The notes beneath the pieces were generated by a model, which searched no databases, was not told the DNA's origin, and was given only the letters and a program-made list of their open reading frames with translations. A stretch of 64,000 nucleotides of DNA, taken from NCBI RefSeq assembly GCF_003387075.1, contig NZ_QUMQ01000001.1, positions 8,866,001-8,930,000 on the forward strand, given 5' to 3'. Every line of letters starts with the position of its first letter. The first letter of the stretch is position 1. Of the stretch, positions 31,330 through 33,861 are shown in pieces. Position numbers and translations under genes: made by a program. The DNA comes from Asanoa ferruginea (GTDB lineage: Bacteria; Actinomycetota; Actinomycetes; Mycobacteriales; Micromonosporaceae).

Positions 31330-32589
31330 CTACGGCGTAAGCCGGTGCAGGTCGCGGGGGAACACCGCGACCTCGCGCACGTTGGTCGCGCCGAGCAGGC
31401 GGGCCACGAAGCGCTCCAGGCCGATGGCGAAACCGCCGTGCGGCGGCATGCCGTGCCGGAACGCCTCGACATACGTCTCGACGCCGGTCAGGTCACCCTT
31501 GAGCGCGGCGACGTAGTCGGCGTACTCGTGCAGCCGCTGCCCGCCGGTGACCATCTCCAGGCCGCGGAACAGCAGGTCGAACGAGTTGGAGTGGGTCGGG
31601 CGGCCCGGCTCGGGATGCGTGTAGAACGGCCTCTTGCGCATCGGGTAGCCGGTCACGAAGAGGAAGTCCGAGCCGTGCTCGCGGACGGCCCACTCGCCCA
31701 GCGCCCGCTCGTGCGCGGGTGCCAGGTCGGGCTCGTCGGCCGGCGCGCCGGCGATCTCCAGCGCGGTCGTGAAGTGGATCGCCGGGATCTCGGCGGGCAC
31801 GTCCGGCATCTTGACGCCCGGCAGCCGCTCGGCGACCGTGTCGGTCATGCCGGCCACGACGTCGCGCAGCACCGCCATCACGTCGCGGTGGTCCTCGATG
31901 AAGCCCAGCTCGACGTCGAGCGACGTGTATTGGGCCAGGTGCCGGGCGGTGTCGTGCGGCTCGGCGCGGAACACCGGGCCGACCTCGTAGACCTGCTCGA
32001 AGACGCCGACCATGAGCTGCTTGTAGAACTGCGGGCTCTGGGCCAGGTAGGCCCGGCTGCCGAAATAGTCGATGCCGAACACGTTGGCGCCGCTCTCGGT
32101 GGCCGAGGCGACGATCTTCGGCGTGAAGATCTCGGTGAAGCCCCGGTCGTCGAGCGTCGCCCGGAACCCCTCGGCGGCGGCCGCGGCCGCCGTGACCGCA
32201 CGGCGCCGGGTCGCGTGCCGCAGGGCCACCGACGCGTGGTCGAGCTGCGTGGGCAGGGTGGCGGTGAGCAGCGGCCGGTAGAGGTCGAACGGGGGCGGTG
32301 CGGCCGGCGCGCTCAGTTTGCGTACGACCGGCTCGGTTATCTCCACGCCCAGGGGTGCTCCGCTGTTGATCGTCACCAGGCCGGTGACCTCGACGACGGT
32401 CTCCTCGGTCAGCTCCTCGAGCTGCTCGCGCACCTGCGGGTCGGTGATGACGACCTGGACCAGGCCGGCCCGGTCGCGCAGGATCAGGAAGGCGACGGCC
32501 TTGAGCACGCGCCGGCGATGGACCCAGCCGGCGACGGTGACGGTGCTGCCGGGATGGGCGGGCAGCTGGCTGGACAGGATGCGTTGCAT
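31330..32589 (-). CDS. aspS: Archaeal-type aspartyl-tRNA synthetase, probably non-discriminating
   Basis: Class IIb synthetase of 419 residues, much shorter than bacterial AspRS (~590) because the GAD insertion is missing. The N-terminal OB-fold (VTVAGWVHRRRVLKAVAFLILRD, split at KAVAF) binds the anticodon. Motif 2 is in VFRAEPHDTARHLAQY, and motif 3 is FAIGLERFVARLL near the C-terminus. This archaeal form usually charges both tRNA-Asp and tRNA-Asn in species using the GatCAB amidotransferase; that is family knowledge, not shown here. AGGAGGT lies 6 nt before the ATG. A T-box leader precedes it. It is encoded antisense between lipB and lipA. Confidence 0.92.
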   Translation of the reverse strand: MQRILSSQLPAHPGSTVTVAGWVHRRRVLKAVAFLILRDRAGLVQVVITDPQVREQLEELTEETVVEVTGLVTINSGAPLGVEITEPVVRKLSAPAAPPPFDLYRPLLTATLPTQLDHASVALRHATRRRAVTAAAAAAEGFRATLDDRGFTEIFTPKIVASATESGANVFGIDYFGSRAYLAQSPQFYKQLMVGVFEQVYEVGPVFRAEPHDTARHLAQYTSLDVELGFIEDHRDVMAVLRDVVAGMTDTVAERLPGVKMPDVPAEIPAIHFTTALEIAGAPADEPDLAPAHERALGEWAVREHGSDFLFVTGYPMRKRPFYTHPEPGRPTHSNSFDLLFRGLEMVTGGQRLHEYADYVAALKGDLTGVETYVEAFRHGMPPHGGFAIGLERFVARLLGATNVREVAVFPRDLHRLTP

Positions 32590-32816
32590 TGGTGGACCTC
32601 CTCGTCGGTCGCAACGCGATCCCCGGGAGGTGTGGGCGAGCGGGTTCCTCGCGGTGCCACCACACCTTCACCCCGGCTGACCGGGGCCTCATTGGTCGCG
32701 CTGCGGCTCGGGAGTGTCTTCGCGACCGGTGCCGGGCCACCATCACAGCAACTGGTGGCTCTCTCGGCCGGCAGGGTCGATCGCTACTTGGTTCCGTCTG
32801 CGCCGTTGCGGCCGAG
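32590..32816 (-). promoter_or_regulatory. T-box riboswitch, translational type, ahead of AspRS
   Basis: On the minus strand the leader shows every late T-box element. A stem GCCACC/GGTGGC follows AGAGAG (GAGAGAGCC near 32765-32757). The antisequestrator has arm AGGTGTGG (32667-32660) pairing with CCACACCT (32635-32628), the 7-nt bulge TGGCACC (32659-32653) and a second helix GCGAG/CTCGC. TGGC can pair with a tRNA 3' GCCA end, fitting G73 of tRNA-Asp. ACCTCC (32631-32626) can instead pair with the ribosome binding site GGAGGT (32601-32596), giving the off state. A GAC specifier (Asp codon) is at 32778-32776. TAATCT at 32820-32815 may be the -10, which would leave only a very short Stem I. Confidence 0.85.
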
Positions 32817-32852
32817 ATTACCGGATCCCGCCGGCGGAAGGCGATCGTGAGC

Positions 32853-32883
32853 GGGTTCACAGACGCCGCGCACATGTGAACCC
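32853..32883. repeat. Perfect 9-bp inverted repeat between aspS leader and lipA
   Basis: GGGTTCACA (32853-32861) and TGTGAACCC (32875-32883) are exact complements with a 13-bp spacer. It sits ~36 bp upstream of the lipA -10 and ~33 bp upstream of the possible aspS -10, so it may be an operator for one or both. Confidence 0.6.
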
Positions 32884-32918
32884 CGTCGCCCTGTATGTAG
32901 GAAGGATGAACACCGGGA

Positions 32919-32924
32919 TACGCT
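32919..32924 (+). promoter_or_regulatory. -10 element TACGCT for lipA (leaderless)
   Basis: TACGCT ends 7 nt before the lipA GTG, the same arrangement as lipB. No -35 consensus is visible. Confidence 0.55.
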
Positions 32925-32931
32925 CGGATTC

Positions 32932-33861
32932 GTGACGATCGCTCCAGAAGGCCGCCGGCTCCTGCGCGTCGAGGCGCGGAATGCCGAGACGCCGATCGAG
33001 CGCAAGCCGCCGTGGATCAAGGTCAAGGCCAAGATGGGCCCTGAGTTCACCTCGCTCCACGGTCTGGTTCAGCGCGAAGGCTTGCACACCGTGTGCCAGG
33101 AGGCTGGCTGTCCCAACATCTACGAGTGTTGGGAAGACCGCGAAGCCACCTTCCTGATCGGCGGCGACCAGTGCACCCGGCGCTGCGACTTCTGCCAGAT
33201 CGACACCGGCAAGCCGGCCGAGTTCGACGCCGACGAGCCCCGCCGGGTCGCCGAGTCGGTCGCCACGATGGGCCTGCGCTACGCGACGGTCACCGGCGTG
33301 GCCCGCGACGACCTGCCCGACGGCGGCGCCTGGCTCTACGCCGAGACGGTCCGCCAGATCCACGCCCTCCAGGAGGGCTGCGGCGTCGAGCTGCTCATCC
33401 CCGACTTCAACGGCACCCCCGCGCTGCTGCGCGAGGTCTTCGAGTCGCGCCCCGAGGTGCTGGCGCACAACGTCGAGACCGTGCCGCGGATCTTCAAGCG
33501 GATCCGGCCGGGGTTCCGCTACGACCGGTCGCTGGATGTCATCACGCAGGCGCGCACTTTCGGCCTGGTGACCAAGTCCAACCTGATCCTGGGCATGGGC
33601 GAGGAGCGCGCCGAGATCTCGCAGGCGCTGCGCGACCTGCACGCGGCCGGGTGCGAGCTGGTGACGATCACGCAGTATCTGCGCCCGTCGCCGCGGCACC
33701 ACCCGGTGGAGCGCTGGGTCAAGCCGGAGGAGTTCGTCGAGCTGGCGAAGGAGGCCGAGGAGATCGGCTTCGCCGGCGTGATGAGCGGCCCGCTGGTCCG
33801 GTCCAGCTACCGGGCGGGCCGGCTCTACCAGCAGGCACTGGCCGCGCGTACGCCCGCCTAG
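32932..33861 (+). CDS. lipA: Lipoyl synthase
   Basis: Radical SAM enzyme that inserts two sulfurs into protein-bound octanoate. The 309-residue protein has the auxiliary cluster cysteines Cys55, Cys60 and Cys66 ([12 protein letters not shown]), the radical SAM triad Cys81, Cys85 and Cys88 (CTRRCDFC), and the terminal RSSYR motif whose Ser ligates the auxiliary cluster. It is complete. The GTG at 32932 is fixed by the -10 element. It follows lipB in function. The stop overlaps the convergent HEAT-like gene's stop by 4 bp (CTAG). Confidence 0.96.

Follow-up and report, generated by a model that had tools for sequence, protein, structure and literature searches.

T-box leaders of Actinobacteria are placed before ileS in PMC1262725 and PMC2494555, as far as those accounts go, which agrees with the statement of an earlier note on this DNA that the known ones are mostly ileS leaders. 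In the second account, 12 of 19 actinobacterial genomes together have 32 T-boxes; Symbiobacterium accounts for 18 of these, and the genes behind the remainder are named only partly (PMC2494555). For the Nocardia ileS T-box, Stem II and Stem IIA/B have been stressed (PMC10651847). Translational ileS T-boxes (PMC1262725), represented in the genome of the soil actinobacterium Asanoa ferruginea by L001, its only other T-box match, share with the leader reported here the T-box sequence, the putative logic of an antisequestrator opposed to a sequestrator and the lack of a terminator. No description of an Asp T-box in Actinobacteria was found in the literature searched, mostly by title and the start of the abstract; TBDB scanned Actinobacteria (PMC7778990), and its entries may already list leaders of the type described here.

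T-box control of an additional synthetase gene has precedents in Firmicutes. One of three aspS genes of Clostridium acetobutylicum is under a T-box (PMC2494555), and in Bacillus cereus a T-box precedes lysK, a class I LysRS gene and thus a second, archaea-type synthetase beside the bacterial one, and responds to both tRNA-Lys and tRNA-Asn (PMC2916919). Extra AspRS genes have been placed chiefly in Actinomycetales, in an account that, as far as it was available, makes no mention of a T-box (PMC4206432). The AspRS2 of Thermus and Deinococcus (1n9w, 3kfu; PMC4206432) is likewise a second AspRS and is the best solved relative of the enzyme considered below, but these species are described as also encoding AsnRS, unlike the A. 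ferruginea genome, in which none was found above the family cut-off. The A. ferruginea leader differs from that of C. acetobutylicum in having an Asp specifier, and its gene lies between genes on the opposite strand. The clostridial T-box of aspS and amidation we take to be Asn-linked, and T-box control of tRNA-dependent amidation was reportedly described by Saad in 2012.

A permissive scan of positions 32500-33000 of the window, by which we mean the whole 64,000-nucleotide stretch of A. ferruginea DNA that was analysed, gave a sole match to the Rfam T-box model RF00230, at 32629-32809 on the minus strand (52.9 bits, E 8e-11, model positions 1-219). This score is lower than the Rfam gathering score of 93, so that Rfam scanning at default settings gave no hit in the window. 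The features of the locus are as follows.

32815..32820, minus strand: TAATCT directly upstream of the T-box, a weak candidate for a -10 element picked out by eye
32629..32809, minus strand: T-box riboswitch leader (Stem I, Stem III, antisequestrator), from the RF00230 match and covariation in 32 leaders
32711..32795, minus strand: Stem I, long form, from the Rfam alignment; helices 1-4 of the counted structure, with 87-100% of cells paired
32785..32788, minus strand: AGTA, forming the 5' side of the specifier loop; it corresponds to AGUA in RF00230 and is invariant across the 32-leader alignment
32743..32764, minus strand: AGAGAG distal bulge and apical loop, the tRNA-elbow-binding part of a long Stem I, aligned to AGAGAgcu...GgUUGGUG of RF00230
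32716..32718, minus strand: specifier codon GAC (Asp) in the context GAA-GAC-A, with the register from the Rfam alignment
32671..32686, minus strand: Stem III hairpin CCCCGG/CCGGGG, from the Rfam alignment, with RNAalifold pairs changed on both sides
32628..32667, minus strand: antisequestrator AGGUGUGG/CCACACCU around UGGCACC and the hairpin GCGAG/CUCGC, counted as helices 5 and 6 in the covariation analysis
32653..32659, minus strand: T-box bulge UGGCACC (TGGCACC, 32659-32653), its UGGC complementary to the GCCA of tRNA-Asp (G73)
32626..32631, minus strand: anti-Shine-Dalgarno segment ACCUCC, which shares positions with the 3' strand of the antisequestrator and has a 6-bp Watson-Crick match to the Shine-Dalgarno sequence
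32596..32601, minus strand: Shine-Dalgarno GGAGGU of aspS2, 6 nt from the ATG at 32589
31330..32589, minus strand: aspS2, archaeal-type AspRS (aspartate--tRNA(Asn) ligase), 419 aa, by NF003483

The elements from which the earlier note had proposed a T-box (the antisequestrator, TGGCACC, AGAGAG, GAC, ACCTCC and GGAGGT) were all found on the minus strand, and the Rfam search that it had suggested returned RF00230 over the full model length, though below the gathering score. The antisequestrator pairs AGGTGTGG (32667-32660) with CCACACCT (32635-32628), enclosing an inner hairpin of GCGAG (32652-32648) and CTCGC (32640-32636), all on the minus strand. AGAGAG, at 32764-32759 on that strand, is invariant in the 32 leaders. 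Between the antisequestrator and the Shine-Dalgarno sequence, GGGG and CGCGTTGC (window 32624-32611) recur in many of the leaders listed, and a pairing of CGCGTTGC with the 5' end of the leader was seen by eye in some genera only. No consensus sigma-70 site was found when the leader region was scanned; hexamers similar to TAATCT occur, by eye, at a comparable place in some relatives.

One element of the earlier reading has to be replaced, namely a very short Stem I. As the AGUA/GAA specifier loop and the AGAGAG/apical loop align to RF00230, Stem I is long and includes the elbow-binding distal motif, and an ultrashort form was ruled out for this leader by the same alignment. The missing part is Stem II, as Stem I and Stem III are separated by only about 17 nt. 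In other genera, aspS2 can be preceded by a leader with ultrashort Stem I. The leader therefore shares with Class I T-boxes (RF00230) a long Stem I with both loops and a full-length match, but it differs from them in that it appears to be translational, falls short, at 52.9 bits, of the gathering score of 93 and has little sequence at the place of Stem II.

To the covariation alignment were admitted 32 of the 41 leaders with the window's architecture, leaving out near copies, leaders with a badly placed 5' end and unlisted ones. Both sides had changed in 13 of 35 pairs, compared with an average of 8.3 in shuffled alignments (1 of 500 as high), and in 51 cells compared with 16.5 (0 of 500 as high); controls in which the structure was slid gave 1-5 pairs and 2-9 cells. 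Since relatedness is not taken into account by the shuffles, and the structure that was counted had been derived from one aligned sequence, which favours it, this covariation of the antisequestrator and other stems, for which the earlier note had proposed looking, is support rather than proof. RNAalifold recovered the same main stems when no structure was supplied. The outermost A-U pair of the antisequestrator fails in 8 of the 32 leaders, and the outermost pair of the apical helix is unpaired in 28.

Folding of the whole leader gave as the minimum-free-energy structure a third arrangement that is not the T-box fold (z -1.5, with 14 of 200 shuffles folding as well), and plain whole-leader folding was dropped as uninformative. 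When the 3' half was folded in isolation and without tRNA, the antisequestrator was predicted at -55.3 and the sequestrator at -49.9 kcal/mol, 5.4 kcal/mol apart, and folding thus lends no support to OFF as the default state. Such a result would agree with a vestigial T-box that keeps its sequence but has ceased to switch, as would the missing Stem II and the loss of parts in a few relatives. The compensatory changes, together with the presence of the T-box in nine families of the class sample, imply selection on it and make this reading improbable.

A translational mode of action, as the earlier note had put forward, is consistent with both the complementarity of the segment at the end of the antisequestrator to the Shine-Dalgarno sequence and the outcome of a simple pattern scan, which found no terminator-like hairpin in 32500-33000. 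Among 174 leaders (L118, L172 and L209 being left out of the count), the longest Watson-Crick helix between the masking segment and the Shine-Dalgarno region was at least 6 bp in 99; in 75 the longest perfect helix did not exceed 5 bp, and among the longer helices some miss the Shine-Dalgarno sequence itself. Over 142 distinct pairs the mean helix length was 5.58 for the true partners and 5.23 for mixed partners, a value for the former that none of 500 shuffles reached. A transcriptional T-box acting through a terminator would agree with the long Stem I, which is typical of transcriptional T-boxes, although a few translational ones are described as having it too (PMC7583486). Given the lack of a terminator-like site in the simple scan, on which ground transcriptional attenuation was rejected, and a segment after the antisequestrator that is complementary to the Shine-Dalgarno sequence, this is the most improbable of the readings considered.

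The product of aspS2 is an archaeal-type AspRS, as had been claimed for it: it scores 509.7 bits with NF003483 (cut-off, 353) and 342.2 bits, under the cut-off of 368.4, with TIGR00458, and its best solved relative is AspRS2 (1n9w/3kfu, E 4.3e-107). The closest homologues found are in four Asanoa species (93-96% identity). The genome also encodes a bacterial AspRS (NF001750, 832.4 bits), to which AspRS2 is 35% identical over the best piece, and a GatB (462.9 bits); matches to AsnRS were found in the genome only below the family cut-off. AspRS2 has a His in the motif GWVH and a Pro in APLG, which it shares with 1n9w and 1wyd, where 3nel/1b8a have Trp and Lys instead; the His is present in 79 of 80 AspRS2 homologues, and the Pro in all 73 of the 80 whose motif was listed. 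These two residues we take to be marks of non-discriminating enzymes, and charging of tRNA-Asn by AspRS2 is putative.

Both tRNA-Asp genes read have the anticodon GUC and G73, a base described as the bacterial Asp identity base (PMC9976931). The base after UGG in the UGGC of the bulge is complementary to this discriminator G73 in both, in accordance with the fit to tRNA-Asp proposed from the leader. At locus L092 (577-3003; genome C1, near 385.6 kb), fifteen tRNA genes lie within 2.4 kb on one strand in what looks like a tRNA array, and the tRNA-Asp there differs from that of L236.

To examine conservation, a set of 179 leaders was compiled from 80 homologue loci, 80 own-family leaders, the window and 18 class-level leaders (17 at 60% identity or more, one at 40%), leaving out L211, whose gene start is elsewhere, and loci L219-L231 and L233. 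Within the organism's own family, the gene was present at the E 1e-60 threshold in 113 of 150 genomes, and 80 leaders were fetched from these 113. The two own-family collections share species; when compared over 165 nt, 168 of 177 leaders proved distinct. Of the 179 leaders, the window included, 177 retain the T-box bulge. In 173 of these 177 all inner seven antisequestrator pairs form when G-U is accepted and the best partner is chosen, and compensatory forms include GGTGCGG/CCGCACC (12 leaders) and AGTGCGG/CCGCACT (7 leaders). UGG is followed by C in 153 leaders and by U in 24, and the UGGU of the latter suits A73 better than G73. The two leaders lacking a T-box, L029 and L117, gave no Rfam match at E 1, and in L035 Stem I has been lost. 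L029, where the T-box is gone, and L035 each contain a palindromic, MITE-like repeat of 52 bp; a similar element was seen by eye in L011.

The GAC specifier named in the earlier note agrees with the register of the Rfam alignment and was also recovered when the codon was left open in the parse: a long Stem I was parsed in 131 of 161 own-family leaders, of which 130 read GAC. The sole exception, L153 (CGG), is a slip of the pattern, and this leader also holds GAAGACCCT; the T-box of L069 was misplaced in the parse. An Asn specifier was a candidate that this parse did not read, and it was rejected, with no AsnRS found above cut-off in the genome. A further pattern placed 146 of 177 leaders in the long form but itself contains GAC and is not a test of the codon. 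Of the remaining 31, L035 is without Stem I and 30 are without the long form; ultrashort leaders number about 30. Leaving out L103 and L109 (copies of L007 and L009), a UGAC-purine loop was present in 23 of 28 among the hairpins listed, and GAC occurred in some hairpin loop in 26, compared with 24 for TGA, 23 for ACG and 19 for CCG, in a loose test that accepts any hairpin within a 135-nt stretch and in which TGA and ACG overlap GAC. L130 and L137 fail this test, and L124 and L205 have GAC outside a clear specifier hairpin.

By simple motif rules, the 161 own-family leaders comprised 80 with a long Stem I and a Stem II motif, 14 with a long Stem I and a long gap but no Stem II motif, 41 with a long Stem I and no Stem II, which is the window's type, 24 without a long Stem I (five with a Stem II motif, including L035) and 2 without a T-box. 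L135 and L154 lack the upper Stem I, and no Stem II could be seen in them by eye, but GAC is in a hairpin loop and the antisequestrator is intact. With Rfam, L154 is matched in its 3' part alone (25.2 bits, E 0.021), and L135 gives no match at E 1.

For comparison, L001 and 20 family leaders chosen among the T-box matches listed were examined. TIGR00392 (ileS) was the best family for all 21 genes, 20 of which scored above the cut-off, with the incomplete L001 below it, and all 21 leaders carried UGGU and an AUCAC motif. As aspS2 leaders have GAC and mostly UGGC, the specifier and the T-box base vary with the gene; the window leader thus differs from ileS T-boxes in having GAC instead of AUC and UGGC instead of UGGU. 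By eye, L001 has an ultrashort Stem I and a Stem II S-turn motif, in contrast to the long Stem I and missing Stem II of the aspS2 leader. No T-box targets beyond aspS2 and ileS emerged, 20 other own-family matches, chosen among those listed, all being before ileS. A long Stem I was seen in 13 of the 21 ileS leaders (L173-L181, L183, L184, L188, and L192). Some genomes have a long-type ileS beside a second ileS with an ultrashort Stem I, and L190 resembles a shortened long type.

In the class sample, 29 of 394 genomes had a homologue at E 1e-60 or better, 21 at 60% identity or more and eight at 37-40%. The former were distributed over nine families (f1, f2, f3, f10, f11, f17, f19, f29, and f39). 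Outside the organism's own family, 17 of the 18 leaders of genes with at least 60% identity have a T-box; in the 18th (genome G156), the T-box precedes the start of a gene that is interrupted after about 90 codons. At the G156 locus (L232, 55-3440, contig 895), the T-box and the first ~90 aspS2 codons are followed by about 3 kb of other sequence and then by the rest of the gene. At E 1, Rfam matched 10 of the 18 leaders as fetched, the exceptions being seven without a long Stem I and that of G156. Among the eight homologues at 37-40% identity, from which G483 was not included in the leaders examined, G330 has a strong T-box (69.8 bits), and six fetched leaders of 37-39% homologues had neither a T-box motif nor an Rfam match at E 1. 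Within the own family, the 40% homologue in G041 is also preceded by a T-box with GAC. The archaeal-type AspRS genes at loci L213-L218 (f39; 37-39% identity) are without a T-box and perhaps encode the main AspRS there. No RF00230 match reached the gathering score of 93 among the matches listed for the 150 family-level genomes or in the 394 class-level genomes; thus, default annotation would miss the T-boxes in the genomes searched, including those of ileS.

The identity of the leader as a T-box and its assignment to Asp are well supported, and we infer from its sequence that it responds to tRNA. Taken as a whole, the locus is very probably a translational T-box that would sense the charging of tRNA-Asp and control a second, archaeal-type AspRS. 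By the known T-box mechanism (PMC7583486, PMC7778990), GAC in Stem I, which can pair with the anticodon GUC of tRNA-Asp, would select this tRNA, and the distal part of Stem I should grip its elbow. The GCCA end of uncharged tRNA-Asp would then pair with UGGC of the bulge and stabilise the antisequestrator, ACCUCC would be withheld from the ribosome-binding site and aspS2 would be translated. A tRNA carrying aspartate could not form this pairing, so that ACCUCC would pair with GGAGGU and translation of aspS2 would be expected to drop.

With a bacterial AspRS and GatB encoded in the genome and no AsnRS above cut-off, we hypothesize that AspRS2 is most likely a spare enzyme, produced as Asp-tRNA-Asp becomes depleted, for instance when aspartate is scarce or the main AspRS is blocked. 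Two versions of the purpose of the switch were considered. In the first, the Asp-specific T-box is real and AspRS2 is non-discriminating, is induced at low aspartate and feeds GatCAB with Asp-tRNA-Asn. The naming of NF003483 as an aspartate--tRNA(Asn) ligase, the His and Pro named above as non-discriminating marks and the presence of GatB point this way, but when the codon was not fixed beforehand, 130 of 131 leaders read GAC rather than AAC. Several solved bacterial AspRSs, presumably of mycobacterial origin, are named Asp/Asn ligases, suggesting that a main-type AspRS may charge both tRNAs, and if it does, the second enzyme brings no new chemistry. Supply of asparagine, the main rival of the spare-enzyme role, is possible rather than probable.

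In the second version, which we rate higher though at somewhat less than an even chance, AspRS2 is an inhibitor-resistant spare and the T-box senses that a natural product, for example a nucleoside sulfamate or a microcin-C-like compound, has blocked the main AspRS. Some second IleRS enzymes are inhibitor-resistant spares, and in several genomes of the family two ileS genes occur, both of them preceded by a T-box (e.g., L176/L187 and L188/L189). AspRS2 is also of a different lineage from the bacterial AspRS, as reflected in the 35% identity of their best piece. Dealanylascamycin from Streptomyces is reported to hijack the AspRS of Plasmodium; however, that inhibitor work, as far as the account goes, concerned Plasmodium enzymes (PMC12262901).

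A wider proposal, which is speculative and which we hold with less conviction than either version above, is that Asp-sensing translational T-boxes and spare AspRS genes form an actinobacterial unit that answers blockage of the main AspRS, and in which Stem I has been reduced from the long to the ultrashort form. If this is true, L135 and L154, with neither the elbow-binding part of Stem I nor Stem II, would be smaller than current models of tRNA binding allow. As aspS2 leaders occur with long and with ultrashort Stem I, and with and without Stem II, they offer a natural series for defining the parts needed in tRNA binding. An Asp switch that precedes the same gene in each of nine families of the class sample widens T-box control there beyond the ileS leaders named in the accounts cited, and the aspS2 T-box gives a possible reason for the extra AspRS that PMC4206432 describes in Actinomycetales.
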